A stretch of DNA of 64,000 bases from assembly GCF_029309905.1 (NCBI RefSeq), contig NZ_JARBJP010000009.1, forward strand, positions 1 through 64,000, written 5' to 3'. The DNA comes from Brytella acorum (lineage in GTDB: Bacteria > Pseudomonadota > Alphaproteobacteria > Acetobacterales > Acetobacteraceae). The position numbers and the translations under genes are program-made. The notes below the pieces were generated by a model. It was not told the origin of the DNA and did no database searches. It was given only the letters and a program-made list of their open reading frames with translations. Below, one piece after another: positions 446 through 58,296 of this stretch; the stretch's first letter is position 1; each line of letters starts with the position of its first letter.

Positions 446-664
446 TTATTGCTCGACCCGTGTCAAGGCCGCGCCTTTGTGAAAGGCCACATGTCCGGTT
501 TTGAGACTTTCAATTTCGTATTGTGGATTTGCGGACGTTGCATGGTGCTGATATCCATTCACCATAAAAGGCGTGGTGTGTATGGCTTGAATCCGACCCG
601 TGACATAACCGGCCTCGGAATTCCAGGACACAATATCGCCGATTTCGAAAGTCTCGAACTGCAT
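446..664 (-). CDS. HVA1/TUDOR-domain small protein (DUF2945 type)
   Basis: A 72-residue protein that matches from memory the hypervirulence-associated TUDOR-fold family (DUF2945). It has the family layout: an N-terminal GD.VSWNSEAG strand, a central VNGY.HHA segment, PQYEI, and a C-terminal HKG.AL ending. The length is normal for the family. Its molecular function is not established. The start codon has a good Shine-Dalgarno (GGGAG about 11 nt upstream). It is divergent from the DUF488 gene, with start codons only about 20 bp apart, and lies in AT-rich DNA left of the integrated element. Confidence 0.8.
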   Translation of the reverse strand: MQFETFEIGDIVSWNSEAGYVTGRIQAIHTTPFMVNGYQHHATSANPQYEIESLKTGHVAFHKGAALTRVEQ

Positions 665-683
665 GACTGTTTCTTCTCCCGTT

Positions 684-1247
684 ATGCAAAAGACCGATAA
701 GGCTTTTAAAGCTTTTTACACAGTTGGTCATTCAACACATTCATTATCTGATTTTATCGCGATCTTGCGCCATTACAATATTACGATGGTTGTGGATGTC
801 CGCGCCTTTCCGTACTCCAGACGTAATCGGGAGTTTGATGGTTCACGTCTTGTCGCGGAACTCATCCCACATGGGATTGGATATTGTCATATTCCAGAAC
901 TTGGCGGACGACGTCCCCGCTCAAAAACGGTTTGCACAGAAACCAATGCTTTCTGGCGCGTGCAGAGTTTTCACAACTATGCCGATTATGCCTTGGGGGA
1001 GGCATTTCATCAGGGATTGGAAAAACTCATTGAACTGGGCAGACAGGACACCGTTGCCATCATGTGTGCCGAAGTCCTCTGGTGGCGATGTCATAGACGG
1101 ATCATCACGGATTATCTTCTGGAAAACAACCAGACGGTCTTTCACATCCTTTCGCTTACGAATTCCACTCGGGCAAAGATGACTCCTGACGCTATCGTGG
1201 AGAACCGAGAGCGCATTATATACCCACCATCAACGTTGGATACCTAA
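684..1247 (+). CDS. DUF488 family protein
   Basis: A 187-residue protein of the DUF488 family. The hallmarks are the N-terminal FYTVGHSTHS motif, VVDVRAFPYSRRN, the PELGG motif, and a C-terminal MCAE..WWRCHRRII segment with the conserved cysteines. The biochemical role of the family is unknown. I chose the ATG at 684 because the earlier in-frame ATG at 663 would overlap the start codon of the divergent HVA1-like gene; neither candidate has a clear ribosome binding site. DUF2945 and DUF488 genes are common in accessory and plasmid regions, which fits the AT-rich context. Confidence 0.8.
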   Translation: MQKTDKAFKAFYTVGHSTHSLSDFIAILRHYNITMVVDVRAFPYSRRNREFDGSRLVAELIPHGIGYCHIPELGGRRPRSKTVCTETNAFWRVQSFHNYADYALGEAFHQGLEKLIELGRQDTVAIMCAEVLWWRCHRRIITDYLLENNQTVFHILSLTNSTRAKMTPDAIVENRERIIYPPSTLDT

Positions 1248-1646: not shown

Positions 1647-1712
1647 AATCAGAATCGCTTGGTGACAGTGACGGCGTGATGTGATTCACCGTTTTCCTTG
1701 ATGGAGACGGTG

Positions 1713-1868
1713 ATGGCACGAGCATTGAGTGATGATCTTCGGGAGCGGGTTCTGGAGGCGGGCACTGCGGGGACATCAGCTCGCTCGATTGCAGCCCGGT
1801 TCGGTATAGGGGTTTCAACAGCGATCCTCTGGCTGCGTCGGGAACGCGAGAGTAGCGAAAGGTCGGCT
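1713..1868 (+). pseudogene. IS630-type transposase, N-terminal fragment
   Basis: About 50 residues beginning MARALSDDLRERVLEA, then ARSIAARFGIGVSTAI and WLRRERES. This is the N-terminal helix-turn-helix of IS630-family transposases. The DDE catalytic domain is missing: homology stops near 1868 and the frame runs into unrelated sequence. It sits between two oppositely oriented IS5-type fragments, so the stretch is a small cluster of insertion-sequence remains beside attL. Confidence 0.65.
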
Positions 1869-1876
1869 CCGAAACC

Positions 1877-2035
1877 CTATTTTTCATCATTGGTATTGCG
1901 TTGGTTGGGAGCCGCCGCCAGCGTAATGTTCAGGATCGGGCTCGACATCAGCAGATTGCCAGCACGCCTCAATGTGACATCGAAGCCCTGGAACAGTCTT
2001 TCAACCGCCTCTGTCTGCGTCAGACACTCTTCTTC
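1877..2035 (-). pseudogene. IS5-type transposase fragment (central part)
   Basis: The minus-strand frame reads LTQTEAVERLFQGFD, then RRAGNLLMSSPILN and TLAAAPNQRNTNDEK, ending at a stop. This matches the central block of IS5-group transposases (family form roughly GQIVDATLVAAPKQRNT..EK). The aspartate of the DDE triad that normally follows the GQI/SPI motif is replaced by asparagine, and the rest of the protein is absent. It is a dead remnant. Confidence 0.6.
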
Positions 2036-2156
2036 AACATCAAAAACGCCGGACTGCTTCCTGATCCCTCGTCCTCATCACTACAGAAGAAAAGGAAGCG
2101 CAGAAAGCGGCTCGAAACCGAGGAGTTTTCAGAAACCATAAACATATATGAGGTCA

Positions 2157-2270: not shown

Positions 2271-2338
2271 GTCCCATAATCGCCGTTTTTAACATGGGTC
2301 AAAACGTGGGATTTCACCTTCTGTTCCATCGTGGGTTT
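2271..2338. promoter_or_regulatory. Integrase arm-type sites, left end
   Basis: Three short motifs lie between attL and the integrase start: GTCCCATAA at 2271-2279, CATGGGTCA at 2293-2301 and ATCGTGGGTTT at 2328-2338. The last two recur exactly, and the first with one change, just inside attR (19098-19150). Repeated short sites inside both ends are what tyrosine-integrase arm binding would need. The function is inferred. Confidence 0.55.
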
Positions 2339-2363
2339 GGGGATTTCGTGGTATATCCGAACC

Positions 2364-3602
2364 ATGCCGCGAATCACGTCTCACCGCCTGACAGCCCGCA
2401 CCGTCGCCTCCCTCAAGGACGGCGTGTTCGGTGATGGTGGCAATCTCTGGCTGACGGTGAGGAACAACACTCGATCTTGGTCCGTCCGATATAAAAGCCC
2501 CGTCACCGGCAAGGCGCGCGAAATGGGCATTGGCTCCGCTCGCGATGTCAGTCTCGCCGACGCCCGCAGAAGAGCGACAGAAGCGCGCCTGATGGTCCTC
2601 GACGGGATCGACCCACTGGACCGCAAACGCGAGGAGAAGGCCGCAAGGCGCAAGGAAACAGGGCTAACCTTCGCCCAAGTCGCGGAGCGCTACATCATCG
2701 AGCGCGCTCCCGCCTGGCGTGATCCCCGTTCGCCCGGAGTCTGGCGTAGTTCGCTGGAACACCACGCCTACCCGCACATGGGCAAGAAAAACGTCGTCGC
2801 GATTGAGACTGATGACGTGTTAGCCGTCCTGCGCCCGATCTGGGCAACGACGACCGAGACAGCCGGACGCGTGCGTGGCCGCATCGAGCGTGTCCTCGAC
2901 TACGCCCGCACCCAAGGATGGCGAGAAGGAGAAAACCCGGCCCGGTGGCGCGGACACCTCGACAATATCCTTCCCGCACCGTCGAAGGTCACGAAGGTCG
3001 AACACCACGCGGCTGTGGAGCGCAAGGATATCGCCAAGGTCATGGCTGCGCTGGCAAGATCCGATGGCTTGTCCGCGAAGGCCGTCCGTTTCCTTTGTCT
3101 GACGGTCGCGCGATCGGGTGAGGTGCGGGCCGCCGTCTGGTCGGAGATCGACTTTGCGAACCGGGTCTGGACTATCCCGGCTGCGCGCATGAAGGCAGGT
3201 CGCGAACACCGCGTTCCATTGACGGACGGCGCCCTGGCCATTCTCGAGGCTGTGCGCCCCCTGCGTGACTCGGCAAAAGGCGATTTCATCTTTCCAGGAC
3301 ACCGAGCCGGAAAGCCGCTCTCTGACGTGGCTCTGTCGAAGGCGCTGCACCTGGCGGCCGGAACGAAAGCCGTGACCGTGCATGGCCTGCGCTCCACGTT
3401 CCGCGACTGGGCTGCGGAGGAAACGGACTTCCCGAACGAGGTCGCCGAGATGGCGCTTGCTCACGCGGTCGGCAACAAGGTCGAAGCCGCTTACCGGCGC
3501 GGAGATTTGTTCGCCAAGCGCCGGGAGATGATGGAGGCTTGGGAGACCAAGGTAATCACTGTTTTTCATCCGCCTTCCAATCCGGCATCTCTCTCTTCAT
3601 GA
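2364..3602 (+). CDS. Tyrosine-type integrase (P4-like, DUF4102 N-terminus)
   Basis: A 412-residue site-specific recombinase that would insert and excise the element at tRNA-Tyr. Residues about 5-90 form the arm-binding domain of P4-type integrases (GGNLWLTV, MGIGS..DVSLADAR). A SAM-like core-binding domain follows at about 100-200. The catalytic domain carries the first arginine in TVARSGEVR, HGLRSTFRDW, LAHAVG and the likely nucleophile tyrosine in AAYRRGD. I prefer the ATG at 2364 over a GTG at 2331, because 2331 falls inside a repeated arm-type motif and adds non-family residues. The 3' end overlaps the convergent ATPase gene by 47 bp. Confidence 0.93.
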   Translation: MPRITSHRLTARTVASLKDGVFGDGGNLWLTVRNNTRSWSVRYKSPVTGKAREMGIGSARDVSLADARRRATEARLMVLDGIDPLDRKREEKAARRKETGLTFAQVAERYIIERAPAWRDPRSPGVWRSSLEHHAYPHMGKKNVVAIETDDVLAVLRPIWATTTETAGRVRGRIERVLDYARTQGWREGENPARWRGHLDNILPAPSKVTKVEHHAAVERKDIAKVMAALARSDGLSAKAVRFLCLTVARSGEVRAAVWSEIDFANRVWTIPAARMKAGREHRVPLTDGALAILEAVRPLRDSAKGDFIFPGHRAGKPLSDVALSKALHLAAGTKAVTVHGLRSTFRDWAAEETDFPNEVAEMALAHAVGNKVEAAYRRGDLFAKRREMMEAWETKVITVFHPPSNPASLSS

Positions 3603-4746
3603 AATCATCGAATAAGGGAACGGTAAATGCTGTATCTCCATGAGCAGGACTATACACCATACCTTTCCCGATAAGAGATGATCTAATGGGCGCCACACTT
3701 TGCACTTCAGCCCCATAAATGAAAGCAACTTCACCAGATCGGTGCGGTCCGGGCCCCAGTTCCGCTAAAGCTCTTATATATTTCTTCTCCGTTGGGGTCA
3801 TTCGATCCAGCCTTACGCGAAAAAATCCTTTATCCAATCGGTCGAGCGCCGCGGGAGTAGCCTTTTTAACGTCTTCAAGTGTTATAGATGTCGTCTCCGC
3901 AGCATTCCAAGCAGCATGCCCCCACTCTTGTATAAAGTAGGGATAACAAAGCGTTACGCGAAGAATTTCATTAAGCGCTTCTTTCTGAAACTCCACACCT
4001 TCATTGAGCGCAGGCTCCAATACAGCTCTAGCTGCCTCGTCTTGATTGAGCGCATCTACTGTCGGAAAGTCGAATAAACGTTCAACATACGATTTTGCAT
4101 TGCCCATCTTTCCTCTTAGCTGAGGCAATCCCGCACCGAACAAGAGCACGGGCAGAGACCTTTGATTACATCTATGGATAGCCATAATAAGCGCCTCCAT
4201 ATCTGTTTCGCTTAAATATTGAATTTCATCTATTATTATAGCAATCGCAGTTTTTTGTTCTTTAGCGGCCTCACCAACTATCACAAATAGATCCGGAAGG
4301 TCTGCTATAATATCTCCACTATCCGCAAGCCCCTCCTCAGATTTTATACTGAAATCAACCCCAGAAAAAGATACGTTTAGAGCAGATGCGAAACTTCTAA
4401 GACCACGAAGCGCCTTCTTGGCTAAATCTTCAAACTTTTCTTTTCGTGACAACTTTAAAAGAATTGGACGTAGTTTTTTTGTTATTTCTGACGCCAAGGA
4501 TATTTGATCGTATGCTTCTATATAGGCCGTATGATATCCATTGTCATCAGCCAGTGTTTGTACATGATTCATAATTACTGTCTTGCCGACCCCTCTCAGG
4601 CCGACTGCGATAAAACTTTTTTCAGATCGCCCTATCTTTACTCGCTCTAGCGCAAGTCGAGCTTTAGTTAATATTTCATCACGGCCAGCGAGAATCGGCG
4701 GTGGCGTCCCGGCACCGGGAGCGTAGGGATTTTTTACTGGATCCAT
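3556..4746 (-). CDS. AAA+ ATPase with C-terminal winged helix (unknown role)
   Basis: A 396-residue soluble ATPase. Walker A is GLRGVGKT at about residues 49-56, and Walker B is AIAIIIDEIQ at about 170-180. A sensor-like block LPVLLFGAGLPQLRG follows. The C-terminal 100 residues look like a winged helix (LTP.EKKYIRALAELG onward). The overall layout resembles Orc1/Cdc6-like and archaeal-type ATPases. Close relatives are widespread in bacteria, but I know no proven function. The gene is AT-richer than the rest of the element and runs opposite to the main gene series, so it looks like separately acquired cargo. The only upstream sequence in the gap is a nine-unit tandem repeat. Confidence 0.75.
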   Translation of the reverse strand: MDPVKNPYAPGAGTPPPILAGRDEILTKARLALERVKIGRSEKSFIAVGLRGVGKTVIMNHVQTLADDNGYHTAYIEAYDQISLASEITKKLRPILLKLSRKEKFEDLAKKALRGLRSFASALNVSFSGVDFSIKSEEGLADSGDIIADLPDLFVIVGEAAKEQKTAIAIIIDEIQYLSETDMEALIMAIHRCNQRSLPVLLFGAGLPQLRGKMGNAKSYVERLFDFPTVDALNQDEAARAVLEPALNEGVEFQKEALNEILRVTLCYPYFIQEWGHAAWNAAETTSITLEDVKKATPAALDRLDKGFFRVRLDRMTPTEKKYIRALAELGPGPHRSGEVAFIYGAEVQSVAPIRSSLIGKGMVYSPAHGDTAFTVPLFDDFMKREMPDWKADEKQ

Positions 4747-4770
4747 GATACTAACCCCGCAAAAGAAACA

Positions 4771-4860
4771 TAAACCATACTAAACCATACTAAACCATAC
4801 TAAACCATACTAAACCATACTAAACCATACTAAACCATACTAAACCATACTAAACCATAC
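4771..4860. repeat. 9 x 10-bp perfect tandem repeat
   Basis: TAAACCATAC is repeated nine times without any mismatch (GTATGGTTTA on the coding strand of the ATPase). It lies 25 bp upstream of the ATPase start codon. The 10-bp period is close to one helical turn, so each unit would present the same face. Each unit also holds a TATGGT hexamer that partly matches a -10 box. It could be an operator array, a replication-type iteron array, or a slippage-prone expression switch. Confidence 0.95.
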
Positions 4861-4896
4861 TTAGAACTCTAAGAAGGATAAAATTTACTTAACTCC

Positions 4897-5273
4897 CTAA
4901 GGTGTAGTGTTTTCATGTAGGTCAAAGAAAATATCACGGGACGAATACGCCATAAGGGTACCGCCGCCGTTCTCCGGCACGAACTCGACACCTGCGGATT
5001 CCAGGGCGGCGCGGATGGCTTCGATGGTGCGGGGGTAAAGATCCTCTCCCCGTTCAAGGCGGGTGATTGTTGTGGGGGATACTTGGGCTGCCTCAGCCAA
5101 ATCACGTACTCCCAGTTGAAGGGCGGCCCATTATACCAAGATGGGTCGCGGCCTGCCTCAATTTTGATAGCGACCACAGTGCGTTGGCCAATGTCCGTGC
5201 AGCGCCATTCCTTGGAGCAGATCCAGAAGGACTCTCCGATCTTGAAATCAGTGTGTTCCATATTTTTCATCAA
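4897..5273 (-). pseudogene. Broken fusion: small-protein N-terminus joined to XRE HTH remnant
   Basis: Two gene pieces meet near 5105. Upstream (5273 to about 5110) the frame gives a conserved small hypothetical protein start: FKIGESFWICSKEWRCTD, VVAIKIE, then DPSWYNGPP. Its normal C-terminus is missing. Downstream, in another frame, is an XRE-type helix-turn-helix: LAEAAQVSPTTITRLERGE, then TIEAIRAALESAGVEF and PENGGG. This piece lacks its first helix and has a changed tail after GGG. The arrangement suggests a deletion that fused two neighbouring genes. A residual 67-codon frame (4897-5100) may still be translated, but it lacks a full DNA-binding domain. Confidence 0.6.
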
Positions 5274-5282
5274 AAGATATAT

Positions 5283-5798
5283 TTATCTTTCATCAGGAAC
5301 GAATTTTACTTGGCTAACATGACCATAATCTTTGTCTGTTCTGGTTCTTATATCTACTATTAATCCACTATCTCCATCTTTAGCGTAACTGTGCTTGTGA
5401 TACCCTCCCTCAGGTGGGCCAAACATGCCATGCCAACGACCACACTCTTCCACCCCAAGCTGAAAATGCTCATGCTCTTTGCGGGTAATAGTAATCCTGC
5501 TCTCAAGATCCAAGACTTTTGGTGATTCCCCGTGAGGCAATACGAACCATTTGGTAGTATCTTTTACACCGTCTCCATCAGAGAAAACTTGCCCAGCCCT
5601 TTCAAGAGTGTCCCGAAGAGCCGCTATAGTTGAAAGGCGCGGTATTCCTTCTCCCATCTCGAAGCGAATAAGAGTCCTTTTAGGTACTTTACTACGTTCG
5701 GACAGCTCGTCCTGCGACCAACCTAAAAAAGCCCTCGCGGCTCGTACCTGCCCAGGTGTTACTATGGCACTATAAGTGCCTTTTTCGCTTGCGTTCAT
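5283..5798 (-). CDS. XRE-family transcriptional regulator
   Basis: A 171-residue protein with an N-terminal Cro/C1-type helix-turn-helix at about residues 14-70 (VRAARAFLGWSQDELSERS, RTLIRFEMGEGIPR). The C-terminal part of about 95 residues has no fold that I recognise. It is transcribed away from the early gene series, with a 96-bp gap that holds a perfect 10-bp inverted repeat. By position it is the best candidate for the element's repressor. Its AT-rich composition matches the ATPase segment rather than the rightward genes. Confidence 0.8.
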   Translation of the reverse strand: MNASEKGTYSAIVTPGQVRAARAFLGWSQDELSERSKVPKRTLIRFEMGEGIPRLSTIAALRDTLERAGQVFSDGDGVKDTTKWFVLPHGESPKVLDLESRITITRKEHEHFQLGVEECGRWHGMFGPPEGGYHKHSYAKDGDSGLIVDIRTRTDKDYGHVSQVKFVPDER

Positions 5799-12223: not shown

Positions 12224-12571
12224 ATGCGCAAGATTGGCCCCTATTCACGCCCTGAAGCCCTCCTGAAAATGGACGGACGCACCCGATATGCGCGGGTGCT
12301 GAAAAAAGTCCGTGCGGATCTGATTGCCCATGTGGGCGGAAAGCCCTCTCCGACGCAGCTTGCCCTCATCGAACGGGCCGCGTGGATCACGCTGCATATG
12401 ACCCTGATGGACGGGCACATGCTGCAAGGGGGCGCTCCCGCCGAGCGCGATGCGCGCCAATATCTCGCCTGGTCGAATACCCATGCACGGATCATGCGGG
12501 CGCTGGGCCTCGAGAGCGCTGCCGCCTCGCCCGAAACGCTCTCCGCCTACATTTCGGAGCGCGCCGCATGA
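12224..12571 (+). CDS. Hypothetical protein ahead of terminase (possible small subunit)
   Basis: A 115-residue helical protein (IGPYSRPEALLKMDGRTRYA, then ADLIAHVGGKPSPTQLALIE). Proteins of this type are familiar immediately upstream of large terminase genes in alphaproteobacterial phages. The small size, position and four-base overlap with the terminase make a DNA-recognition (small terminase) role plausible, but no canonical motif proves it. The 136 bp before it holds no gene. Confidence 0.6.
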   Translation: MRKIGPYSRPEALLKMDGRTRYARVLKKVRADLIAHVGGKPSPTQLALIERAAWITLHMTLMDGHMLQGGAPAERDARQYLAWSNTHARIMRALGLESAAASPETLSAYISERAA

Positions 12572-13269
12572 ACATCGTCCAAGCGATGCGCGATCCCAAT
12601 TTGTTCGGCCCACACTTTACGGGCGACACATGGGGCGCGTGGGAAGCATTTCTCGACGCCCTCTTCGCGCTGCCGATGAGTGAGACGGCCCTCACCCTCT
12701 ATCGCCAGCACACGGGGCGCACCGCCCCTCCCGCCGAAGCATTCGTGATGGCCGCCCTGATCTGCGGGCGCCGGGCTGGCAAGAGCCGCATCCTTGGTCT
12801 GATCGCGACCTATCTCTCCGCGTTCCGGGATTACACGCCTTACCTCGCGCCTGGGGAAGTCGCGACTGTCGCAGTCATCGCGTCAGACCGGAAGCAGGCT
12901 CGCACGATCTTCCGGTACATCTCCGGCGCGCTTGCCAGTGTGCCGATGCTGGCCCGCATGGTGCAGGACGAGACGAACGAGACCATCATGCTTTCGAACC
13001 GTGTCGTCATTGAGATTGCGACCGCTTCCTTTCGCGTCACGCGTGGCTACACCTTTGCCGCAGTGCTTGCGGACGAGACTGCCTTCTGGCGGTCGGACGA
13101 CACCAGCGCGAACCCGGATGAGGAAATCATCAAAGCGATCCGACCGGGACTGAGCACTATCCCCGGTTCGATGCTCCTTCTCGCCTCGTCGCCATATGCC
13201 AAGCGCGGCATTCTCTACAAGACGTTCCGCAAATACTGGGGGCAGGACGACGCGCGCGTGCTCGTCTAG
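12568..13269 (+). CDS. Terminase large subunit, ATPase half (ends at in-frame amber)
   Basis: A 233-residue product containing the packaging ATPase. Walker A is CGRRAGKSR at about residues 67-75 and Walker B is AAVLADETAFWR. The motif III region is SMLLLASSPYAKRG. The frame ends at TAG (13267-13269) after RVLV. Reading continues in the same frame with RGTSLEMNPALDP, the normal link to the nuclease domain, where a tryptophan codon (TGG) would be expected. The break therefore looks like one G-to-A change at 13268. Unless the amber is suppressed, the motor is separated from its nuclease. The start overlaps the previous gene (ATGA). Confidence 0.8.
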   Translation: MNIVQAMRDPNLFGPHFTGDTWGAWEAFLDALFALPMSETALTLYRQHTGRTAPPAEAFVMAALICGRRAGKSRILGLIATYLSAFRDYTPYLAPGEVATVAVIASDRKQARTIFRYISGALASVPMLARMVQDETNETIMLSNRVVIEIATASFRVTRGYTFAAVLADETAFWRSDDTSANPDEEIIKAIRPGLSTIPGSMLLLASSPYAKRGILYKTFRKYWGQDDARVLV

Positions 13270-13287: not shown

Positions 13288-13998
13288 ATGAACCCGGCTC
13301 TCGATCCGGCCATTGTCGAGGAAGCCCATGAGGAGGATCCGGCTGCCGCGGCCGCCGAATACGGCGCGGAATTCCGTTCAGACATCGCGTCTTTCATCTC
13401 ACCGGAAGTTATTCAGGCATGCACTGTGCCAGGGCGGTTCGAACTGCCCTTCGTCAAGACGCATCGTTATCGCGCCTTTGTCGATCCGTCTGGCGGTTCT
13501 GGTGACAGCTTCACGCTCGCGATCGCGCATGACGAGGGCGACATCGCCGTTCTCGACTGTGTCCGCGAGATCAAGCCGCCTTTCTCGCCCGATGCCGCCA
13601 CGAAGGAACTGGCGGAGACGATCAAGGCCTATGGGCTGAACACGGTCACGGGCGATCGGTATGGCGGCGAATGGCCCCGCGAACGGTTCCGCGTTCATGG
13701 CATCACGTATGCTCCCAGCGAGAAGGACCGATCGGGCCTCTACCTGGAGGCCCTTCCCCGCCTCAACGCTGGCAAGGTCGAACTTCTCGACCTCAGGCAG
13801 ATCGAGCGCCAGTTCTGTGGCCTTGAACGCCGCACGGCCCGCAGTGGCAAAGATTCTGTCGACCATGCGCCTGGTGGGCATGACGACCTGGTGAACGCCA
13901 TTGCCGGCGTCCTTTCCCAGAAGGCGAAGGCTCGGATGCCGAGCTTCGCCGGATACCGCCCCCAACATTCATCATCGCTCAGGAGACTCGCCATATGA
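13288..13998 (+). CDS. Terminase large subunit, nuclease half (after amber)
   Basis: A 236-residue remainder of the same terminase, in the same frame as the ATPase half. The RNase-H-like nuclease landmarks are FVDPSGGSGDSFTLAIAH with the first acidic residue, VTGDRYGGEW, and GGHDDLVNAIAG with the last acidic pair. An ATG at 13288 could allow restart, but no strong ribosome binding site precedes it. Apart from the single stop the sequence shows no decay: no frameshift and no lost catalytic motif. The break is recent or tolerated. Confidence 0.75.
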   Translation: MNPALDPAIVEEAHEEDPAAAAAEYGAEFRSDIASFISPEVIQACTVPGRFELPFVKTHRYRAFVDPSGGSGDSFTLAIAHDEGDIAVLDCVREIKPPFSPDAATKELAETIKAYGLNTVTGDRYGGEWPRERFRVHGITYAPSEKDRSGLYLEALPRLNAGKVELLDLRQIERQFCGLERRTARSGKDSVDHAPGGHDDLVNAIAGVLSQKAKARMPSFAGYRPQHSSSLRRLAI

Positions 13999-19202: not shown

Positions 19203-19217
19203 ATGGTGGAGAGGGTT
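19203..19217. repeat. attR (right attachment core, within tRNA-Tyr)
   Basis: This is the second copy of the 15-bp repeat at 2157-2171. All but one of its bases lie in the tRNA-Tyr 3' end. Integration keeps the tRNA whole, since the core carries the same sequence as the displaced end. Confidence 0.85.
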
Positions 19218-19289
19218 GGATTCGAACCAACGTAGGCGTACGCCAGCGGATTTACAGTCCGCCCCCTTTAGCCACTCGGGCACCTCTCC
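19204..19289 (-). tRNA. tRNA-Tyr (GTA)
   Basis: An 86-nt gene including the encoded CCA (19204-19206). The acceptor stem GGAGAGG/CCTCTCC pairs fully. The T-arm contains GGTTCGAATCC. The long variable arm marks a class II tRNA. The anticodon GTA (19253-19255) lies in a proper seven-base loop. It is divergent from rlmB and is the integration target of the 17-kb element. Confidence 0.96.
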
Positions 19290-55660: not shown

Positions 55661-55730
55661 CCGGTAACGCTCTTCGGGAATCCGGCGCGGGGGCCTCCCC
55701 GTAAGCCTTCAGTTCGCCTATAAGCGACAG

Positions 55731-55790
55731 GCGTTTAACCGGCGGACGTTTAACCGGCGGGCGTTTAAGCGACGGGCGTTCGACGCAGGA
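55731..55790. repeat. 15-bp tandem repeats, about four units
   Basis: GCGTTTAACCGGCGG (55731-55745) is followed by ACGTTTAACCGGCGG, GCGTTTAAGCGACGG and GCGTTCGACGCAGGA (to 55790), diverging from unit to unit. They lie 22 bp before the next gene. They could be protein-binding sites or a degenerate minisatellite. In one minus-strand frame they would encode repeated RRLNA, which I do not regard as real coding. Confidence 0.85.
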
Positions 55791-57273: not shown

Positions 57274-58194
57274 ATGATGGACCTGAATGACATGGCGTAT
57301 TTCGTCGCCGTCGTGGATCACGGCGGCTTCGCGGCCGCCGGTCGGGCGCTCGGCCTCCAGAAATCCCGCCTCAGCCGACGCATTCTCATGCTGGAGGCAC
57401 GTCTGGACGTGCGCCTGCTCAACCGCTCGTCCCGGCGATTTTCCGTCACGGAAATCGGGCGCGCCTATTATGAACGCTGCATGGCCATGCTGGTCGAGGC
57501 CGAAGCCGCCGAAGAGCTTGTGGCGCAGACCCATGCGCGCCCGTGCGGGGTGATCCGCATGAGCTGTCCGATCGGGCTGCTTTCCTTCCGGTTCGGAGTG
57601 CTTATCAGCCGCTTCATGATGGAGAATCCCGAGGTGGAAATCCGTCTGGATGCGACCAACCGACGCGTGGACGTGATCGCCGAGGGACTGGACCTCGCCA
57701 TCCGTGTGCGTTTTCCGCCCCTGCCGCCGTCAGATCTGGTGATGCGCAAACTCGATGACAGCACGCAGTGCCTCGTCGCCAGCCCGACGCTCCTGTCCGC
57801 GCCGCTGGCCTCGCCCGCCGATCTGACCGGACTGCCGAGCATGGACTGGGGCTCGACCGGCGAGAGCCATGCCTGGCAGCTTCATCATGACGACGGACGC
57901 AGCGCGACCGTTCCTCACCGCCCTCGCCTGCTGACCGACGATATGGGCGCGCTCCGCGAAGCCGCGCTAGCGGGCATGGGCGTCGTGCAGATGCCCACCA
58001 TGATGATCTGGCGCGATGTCGCGGAGGGCCGCCTTATCTCCGTTCTGCCTGAGTGGCGACCGCCCACCGGGCTGATCCACGCGGTTTTCCCCTCGCGCCG
58101 TGGTGTCCTGCCCTCGGTGCGCGCCCTGCTGGATTTCATGACGGACGCTTGCATCGCCCAAAGCATGGATGCCGCCCGAACCATGCGCCCGTGA
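57274..58194 (+). CDS. LysR-family transcriptional regulator
   Basis: A 306-residue LysR-type regulator. The winged helix at residues about 1-60 reads MAYFVAVVDHGGFAAAGRAL, then LQKSRLSRRILMLE with LLNRSSRRFSVTEIG. The substrate-binding domain follows (IRMSCPIGLLSFRFGVLISR, and RLDATNRRVDVIAEGLDLAI). Start at 57274 with GGATAGG before it; a second ATG follows at once. It is divergent from the pirin gene across an 88-bp gap, so control of pirin is likely. Confidence 0.9.
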   Translation: MMDLNDMAYFVAVVDHGGFAAAGRALGLQKSRLSRRILMLEARLDVRLLNRSSRRFSVTEIGRAYYERCMAMLVEAEAAEELVAQTHARPCGVIRMSCPIGLLSFRFGVLISRFMMENPEVEIRLDATNRRVDVIAEGLDLAIRVRFPPLPPSDLVMRKLDDSTQCLVASPTLLSAPLASPADLTGLPSMDWGSTGESHAWQLHHDDGRSATVPHRPRLLTDDMGALREAALAGMGVVQMPTMMIWRDVAEGRLISVLPEWRPPTGLIHAVFPSRRGVLPSVRALLDFMTDACIAQSMDAARTMRP

Positions 58195-58296
58195 TTATGC
58201 GTCCGTGACATGCGCTCGTGACATGCGCTCTGGCCTCATCATCTCAGGGCGGGATAAAGGAACAACCATGAGTGACTTCCGAGCGACTGGCCCTGC

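Follow-up and report, generated by a model that had tools for sequence, protein, structure and literature searches.

In STAND regulators, the winged helix is followed by a sensor or effector domain. Promoter binding has been described for IniR, a protein with an SSO1545-like AAA+ domain (PMC5760070). Arrays of short repeats are known from plasmid partition systems. According to PMC9426499, parC of plasmids R1 and pB171 contains direct repeats of approximately 10-11 bp at the NTPase promoter; a protein of the same operon binds these repeats, and ParR autoregulates at parC. The parS heptad arrays of pSM19035, which are bound by a ParB of the RHH type, need four or more repeats (PMC9499535). The locus described here resembles parC (ParR/ParM) in that a repeat array of approximately 10 bp lies at the promoter of an NTPase gene. 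Herein, we analysed this array in Brytella acorum and its counterparts in other bacteria. On balance, we believe that the array serves as the operator of an AAA+ ATPase gene, at whose promoter it lies, and that the ATPase recognises it through its own winged helix.

Results

A perfect 10-bp repeat array upstream of an ATPase gene

The window, meaning the whole 64-kb stretch of DNA that was analysed, yielded 13 rows in Tandem Repeats Finder. The array at positions 4771-4861 led them with a period of 10, 9.1 copies, 100% matches and a score of 182, and the runner-up scored 81. The nine perfect 10-bp repeats that a preliminary description had placed upstream of the ATPase gene are thus confirmed, with 100% matches over 4771-4861. 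Further short tandem repeats of the window are located at 55730-55780 and 58182-58228, with periods of 15 and 13.

The tandem-repeat scan and direct reading of the bases define a putative operator array (4771-4861, plus strand) of nine perfect direct half-sites TAAACC, separated by the 4-bp linker ATAC, and one base of a tenth copy. The repeated unit, TAAACC plus ATAC, is present as nine perfect copies of TAAACCATAC and reads GTATGGTTTA on the gene strand. Relative to the ATPase start codon (ATG at 4746, minus strand), the array occupies the stretch 25-115 bp upstream. Its gene-proximal edge is formed by two degenerate units that remain in phase (4751-4770, plus strand), and the bases at its gene-distal edge show a TAGAAC half-site (4862-4867, plus strand), 11 bp past the last TAAACC. 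In the B. acorum genome (3.32 Mb, 42 contigs), all eight matches (8/8) to two adjoining units fell inside the array. The same was true of all eight matches (8/8) to a three-half-site pattern with up to three mismatches, and the reversed-pattern control gave 0. The exact two-unit sequence had 0 matches among viral contigs.

The preliminary description had also proposed a -10-like hexamer in each unit, which found little support. The hexamer in question, TATGGT, shares only 4/6 letters with TATAAT, and a consensus scan of 4650-5000 detected 0 sigma-70-type promoters (shuffles: mean 0.7, sd 0.7). The core promoter and the leader would be expected in the gap between the array and the ATG (4747-4770, minus strand), where the scan recognised none.

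The ATPase gene is located between a converging phage-type integrase gene (2331-3602) and an XRE-type regulator gene (5283-5798), and VapE-type helicase and terminase-like genes stand beside it. Since the integrase, helicase and terminase-like genes adjoin, this copy of the ATPase gene resides in prophage-like DNA. The terminase large subunit is split into two ORFs (12382-13269 and 13288-13998, plus strand) that match successive portions of a single phage family, which suggests that the prophage is defective at this point. Upstream of the array, at 4897-5270 (minus strand), ORFs in two frames resemble, by eye, remnants of a second XRE-type regulator; the 124-residue reading there had no Pfam match. 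Other features of the region are a transposase-like helix-turn-helix fragment with a weak IS630-type match (1698-2141, plus strand) and a DUF488 protein (663-1247, plus strand) that matches the candidate defence models PDC-M45B and PDC-M19A. A tRNA-Tyr gene (19204-19289, minus strand) lies just past the phage-like genes and is a possible attachment site, though the integrase is at the opposite end.

The ATPase and its relatives

The gene downstream of the array (3556-4746, minus strand) encodes a stand-alone, ORC/STAND-like AAA+ ATPase of 396 residues, as judged from the ORF, Pfam, an alignment and a structure model. In the Walker A motif (residues 49-56; 4579-4602, minus strand), G49, G52, G54, K55 and T56 were invariant among 115 aligned proteins, and so was the Walker B acidic pair D173 E174 (4225-4230, minus strand). 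The model (pLDDT 92.2, pTM 0.89) places the AAA+ domain before a predicted C-terminal winged helix (residues 318-376; 3619-3795, minus strand), our proposed half-site reader, and the chain ends 20 residues past this fold. The only curated cut-offs passed were those of the general AAA_16 and AAA_22 domains, with AAA_16 as the Pfam match. In the fold ranking, PABY2304 and SSO1545 were followed by archaeal ORC2 (20.4), NLR/apoptosome proteins and TnsC (16.1). A sequence search of solved structures returned three matches at chance level (E 0.49 or worse). The PADLOC defence models gave no clear match to the ATPase, the best being to part of a Cas3 model (E 7e-4, 16.9 bits), and a defence-system identity was dropped for want of a clear model match.

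We confirmed 169 relatives of the ATPase in species genomes. The best 80 of the 169 showed 49-55% identity, together with one partial relative at 71%. Titles among the best 80 of the 169 include Planctomycetota, Verrucomicrobiota, Omnitrophota, Elusimicrobia and Acidobacteria, classes of Pseudomonadota, as well as Chloroflexi, Chlamydiae, Bacteroidota, Bdellovibrionales, Sumerlaeota and Eremiobacterota. These labels come from record titles, many of them metagenome bins, and the phylum names are those we take to apply. Matches were also obtained in 115 plasmid records and 2 phage records, in 56/395 genomes of the order of the window and in 31/385 of its class (own genome and fragments included). 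The 71% relative, L014, aligns over residues 100-388 and begins within the gene at a contig end, so it has no upstream DNA. The nearest relative with upstream DNA is L128 (68% over residues 1-273). In L128 (G203:C142), the ATPase stops after residue 273 and resumes on G203:C13, which indicates either an interrupted gene or an assembly break. Among the literature matches listed, none was by its title a paper on this ATPase family or its operator, most subscription papers lying outside the coverage. The family appears uncharacterised, and the silence of the literature is a weak sign of novelty.

Half-sites at 10-bp spacing recur upstream of the ATPase gene

Several loci were dropped before the counts: L014 (no upstream DNA), L072 (an upstream region that differs from all others), L079 (only 6 bp of upstream DNA), L081-L089 (which duplicate the window) and L099 (a fragment). 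Merging near-identical upstream regions reduced 132 to 119 non-redundant loci. In the 80 bp before the start codon of these 119 loci, the self-match at lag 10 was 0.384 (z 22.5), and lag 20 was likewise raised (z 10.5). Lags 8 and 9 were also raised but less so (z 5.4 and 8.7), and the control segment from -180 to -101 gave a lag-10 z of -0.9. A held-out set of 21 loci, from which L178, homologues below 44% identity and loci that contained N or lacked a start had been excluded, reproduced the lag-10 signal (z 8.1; own control 0.6), and 0/21 reached 60% ungapped identity over 80 bp with any earlier locus. No 10-bp periodicity was found in six distant homologues (25-38% identity; z 0.0).

Taken singly, 66/119 loci passed the 95% limit of their own shuffles. 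The phylum breakdown used the 33 loci with telling titles. Singly significant loci carried titles of Bdellovibrionota, Verrucomicrobiota, Pseudomonadota, Planctomycetota, Omnitrophota, Chloroflexota, Elusimicrobiota, Chlamydiota and Bacteroidota, and further ones were titled FCPU426, Binatia and a PVC bacterium. The 10-bp half-sites thus reach significance on their own in loci whose titles name at least nine phyla. Lone or paired loci of Sumerlaeota, Eremiobacterota, Acidobacteriota, Saganbacteria and a Desulfuromonadaceae bin were not singly significant. A half-site core model recognised a run of two or more cores spaced 10 bp apart in 124/133 upstream regions (window included) versus 43/126 control segments.

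Layout and symmetry of the site

The usual layout consists of two inverted arms with three half-sites TAnA(A/C) each, at 10-bp pitch, and the dyad-centred profile of one arm reads TTT...TATAA.T..aTAAA.tT..ttAaAa. Since the profile that set the dyad positions had been trained on these loci themselves, it can be biased towards symmetry; the linker columns serve as internal control. A 9-bp pitch occurs in some loci, e.g. L005, which has 4.9 perfect copies of ATAAACTAG.

In 13 loci the dyad is at -32.5, and in 12/13 of these the ATG follows directly on the last half-site. In the same loci, the hexamer at -16 matches the -10 consensus with a mean of 4.62/6, and a Shine-Dalgarno-like four-base word was present in only 27/119 loci. 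Because the half-site abuts the ATG, the hexamer at -16 is -10-like and Shine-Dalgarno-like words are scarce, the sequences suggest, without proof, a leaderless ATPase transcript that starts inside the operator.

The two arms were more alike within a locus than between loci, with an identity of 0.617 versus 0.429 (n=32) and of 0.577 versus 0.461 (n=64), each with 0/2000 permutations. In the 64-locus set, the largest within-locus excess fell on half-site base 3 (+0.35, +0.41 and +0.29 at columns 8, 18 and 28). These columns follow each other at 10 bp, and the remaining core bases are nearly fixed. The linker columns 13, 14, 23 and 24 showed an excess of 0.02-0.11. In the 32-locus (parity-0) set, the excess was more widespread (linkers 0.07-0.44), and the match of a unit to the next unit was not better within a locus (0.411 versus 0.405, 624/2000). 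The clean base-3 result therefore rests on the 64-locus set.

A hairpin would match the linkers too. Since the linkers were barely matched between arms, a hairpin was rejected for the 64-locus set, and the pattern indicates a protein operator; a few nearly perfect palindromes in the 32-locus set could still fold as hairpins. The earlier proposal that 10-bp spacing on one face of the helix reflects protein binding that controls the ATPase gains from these comparisons, as relatives carry half-sites of the same spacing at the same place and the variable half-site base is matched within each locus.

Which protein reads the site

A strict half-site triplet had 17 matches in the genomes of 30 relatives. 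By coordinate arithmetic with the search for relatives, 14 matches (in 12 genomes) were placed in the ATPase promoter and 3 elsewhere, two of which overlap each other. The reversed triplet pattern had 4 matches in the same 30 genomes. With 3/17 triplets outside the ATPase promoter versus 4 reversed-pattern matches, a regulon of sites elsewhere was rejected. The triplet had 0 matches in 16/30 genomes because the half-sites of these relatives do not fit the strict pattern.

In three genomes with two full-length ATPases, the operator-pair cosines were 0.03, 0.20 and 0.38 versus backgrounds of 0.15, 0.18 and 0.23; the operators of the third genome are rather similar (0.38 versus 0.23, sd 0.11). 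The orthologues L111 and L129, which are 77% identical and belong to different genomes, had an operator cosine of 0.60. Over all identities, operator similarity climbed from 0.12 (protein identity in the forties) to 0.52 (nineties), with a dip to 0.24 in the seventies. Operator distance tracked winged-helix distance when AAA distance was fixed (partial r 0.215, 0/300) and AAA distance when the winged helix was fixed (0.154, 0/300). For the middle part with AAA distance fixed, the value was 0.107 (1/300), and for the control segment it was 0.068 (12/300). For the type of half-site, a label that mixes half-site positions which can vary within an operator, the associated protein columns were enriched neither in the whole winged helix (p 0.60) nor in its recognition helix (p 0.11), and the association was higher in the AAA part (p 0.002); with the reservation about the label, we count this among the points against our reading. 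The combined evidence favours the ATPase as the reader of the site, without proof.

The array could be an operator of the ATPase gene and yet be read by another regulator of the host or the element, such as an XRE-type repressor. The XRE-type gene upstream in the window (5283-5798) is an obvious candidate, no column-wise association with the winged helix emerged, and binding by the ATPase is what we infer. Still, we think this reading unlikely, because no regulator gene is common to the ATPase loci across phyla, the two ATPases of one genome have unlike operators in 2/3 cases, and operators resemble that of the orthologue elsewhere. A shared host factor is disfavoured in particular, since it would not produce unlike operators in one genome together with likeness between orthologues. 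Binding by the XRE protein, one of the earlier suggestions, is likewise unlikely, the operator being conserved across phyla while no neighbour gene is.

Neighbours of the ATPase gene

No conserved neighbour was found across phyla; outside the family of the window itself, the largest neighbour cluster clear of the ATPase gene comprised at most 7 loci. In seven plasmid contexts of the ATPase, no shared partner gene was found. Within the window's own family, carA and genes in its vicinity are the neighbours, and carA was confirmed by Pfam in 3/3 tested. In one group of this family, the ATPase gene begins 10-16 nt behind the carA stop in 6/6 loci measured (L127, L131, L133, L135, L136 and L140). 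This gap leaves no room for an operator, and the ATPase gene directly behind carA is presumably cotranscribed with it. In L091 and L138 the gap to carA is 51-61 nt and is occupied by the operator. The 12 loci behind carA without operator room still gave a lag-10 z of 3.4 and a lag-9 z of 7.1, these loci being near-copies of one another. Three carA readings (L133:2449-3933, L091:25-1446 and L138:3062-4429) had weak N-terminal matches to Cro/YdaS-type helix-turn-helix models, below the Pfam cut-offs; the readings run from stop to stop, and the true start may leave out this stretch.

These neighbourhoods bear on a second alternative, in which the array serves chiefly to nucleate or tether the ATPase as it loads onto DNA for some non-transcriptional task, parC-like or origin-like, promoter control being secondary. 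The ORC/Cdc6- and TnsC-like fold would suit such a role, and in plasmid R1 the parC repeats, located at the promoter of an NTPase, act as a centromere (PMC9426499). We regard it as improbable, given that no replication, partition or transposase partner is conserved and that relatives occupy ordinary chromosomal loci, e.g. behind carA. An iteron role, which the preliminary description had offered as another option, was dropped: neither the neighbour clusters nor the seven plasmid contexts showed a shared replication partner, and no replication gene is conserved beside the stand-alone ATPase gene in chromosomes, plasmids or prophage-like DNA.

The window carries an expanded version of the site

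All nine half-sites of the window's array point in the same direction, oriented like the gene-distal arm of the relatives' sites, and the inverted arm is absent from the array. L128, which pairs with the window in the tree (support 1.0), has by eye about five 10-bp units in the orientation of the window and no clear inverted arm. Because L128 also has no clear inverted arm, the inverted layout appears to have been lost in the branch of the window and L128 before the array expanded. Perfect arrays of at least 2.5 copies were present before 5/135 ATPases and in 0/127 control segments: 9.1 copies in the window, 4.9 at 9 bp in L005, 3.4 in L070, 3.1 in L039 and 2.9 in L098. Since these arrays do not share one unit sequence and their carriers stand far apart in the tree, perfect expansion probably arose repeatedly. 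On these sequence comparisons, the all-direct array of the window is a derived, expanded form of the putative operator. The expansion first suspected from the perfect units is upheld in this sense, the common form being approximately six degenerate half-sites in two inverted arms and the nine identical direct units being derived.

It is very improbable that the array is a neutral microsatellite that lies upstream of the ATPase gene by chance and signifies only recent slippage. The perfect identity of the nine units would fit this, but relatives hold 10-bp half-sites at the same position, perfect expansions recur before the ATPase in five loci and in 0/127 control segments, and TAAACC fits the half-site of the family. 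Position and recurrence thus led us to reject the microsatellite. Perfect tandem repeats before a start codon slip readily, and the unit number varies widely between loci; even so, a copy-number switch (phase variation) of ATPase expression is hardly credible, as a 10-bp step leaves the half-sites in phase, which means tuning and not switching, and near relatives with the 3+3 form carry no array.

Discussion

We return to the array as an operator that the ATPase itself reads. We infer that the ATPase is the binder, that it represses and that its ATP state plays a role. The winged helices of neighbouring ATPase subunits would each take a half-site of approximately 6 bp every 10 bp, all on one face of the DNA. 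In this way, the subunits could assemble side by side and cooperatively over their own promoter. The assembled ATPase would then set the expression of its own gene, most likely through repression, either as a block or as tuning. In the prophage-like copy, tandem duplication would have generated nine identical direct half-sites. Such a row should make binding tighter or more cooperative, and more units may mean tighter control.

A broader proposal, which we offer as doubtful, is that six subunits (3+3) of this widespread, stand-alone ATPase of the ORC/STAND type come together on a site that is nearly confined to the ATPase's own promoter, that protein and site letters change together, and that the site is a self-sensing switch. 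If so, a ligand that draws the ATPase away (foreign DNA, replication or other) would release ATPase expression, and the threshold would shift with tandem expansion of the half-site, of which this prophage-like element is an example.

An isolated repeat has thus become a lead on an uncharacterised ATPase family that extends over many phyla. A candidate DNA site is now defined by half-site, spacing, symmetry and variable base, so that binding, stoichiometry and ATP dependence are directly testable. In addition, the many natural pairs of protein and operator offer a way to learn how a winged helix of the ORC/STAND type chooses DNA letters. Finally, the recurrent perfect expansions show how an operator may be rebuilt from inverted to direct repeats.

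The comparison with known systems can be made for both the DNA and the protein. The binder of parC is an adaptor of the ribbon-helix-helix type, whose gene adjoins that of the actin-like ParM, whereas the window ATPase has no conserved second gene. The NTPase of the window is an AAA+ protein with its own winged helix, AAA_16 by Pfam, and ParM is actin-like; the locus is therefore not a member of the parC type. The parS array of pSM19035 is similar in its contiguous short repeats, and repeat number matters in parS, but parS differs in its 7-bp units, RHH protein, ParA partner and function in plasmid partition. In a plasmid iteron origin, the repeats lie beside a Rep initiator gene; the window gene is of the AAA_16 type, with no Rep gene conserved beside it.

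On the protein side, TnsC and MuB are AAA+ proteins that assemble on DNA, and they align with the ATPase model at Z 16.1 (TnsC, 7mbw) and Z 14.9 (MuB, 8xvb). Both act with a transposase, and no transposase is conserved beside ATPases of the window family. STAND regulators differ by the sensor or effector domain past the winged helix, which the window ATPase, ending 20 residues on, does not have. IniR has 818 residues with a MalT-like domain and induces another operon, whereas the window ATPase has 396 residues and no sensor domain. Archaeal Orc1/Cdc6 proteins share the order of AAA+ domain and winged helix (Foldseek, 2qby_A, E 1.7e-9; ApORC2, 1w5t, Z 20.4, rmsd 5.8, 340 aligned), but the ATPase scored 29.1 bits against the Orc1/Cdc6 model TIGR02928 and did not reach its cut-off of 181.3. 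In contrast to Orc1/Cdc6, the window site is at the ATPase's own promoter, with no origin seen and no replication gene conserved nearby. The best whole-chain fold matches were ATPases of the SSO1545/PABY2304 type, with Z 24.3, rmsd 4.4 and 321 aligned residues for 2qen, and Z 23.2, rmsd 3.9 and 320 aligned residues for 2fna.
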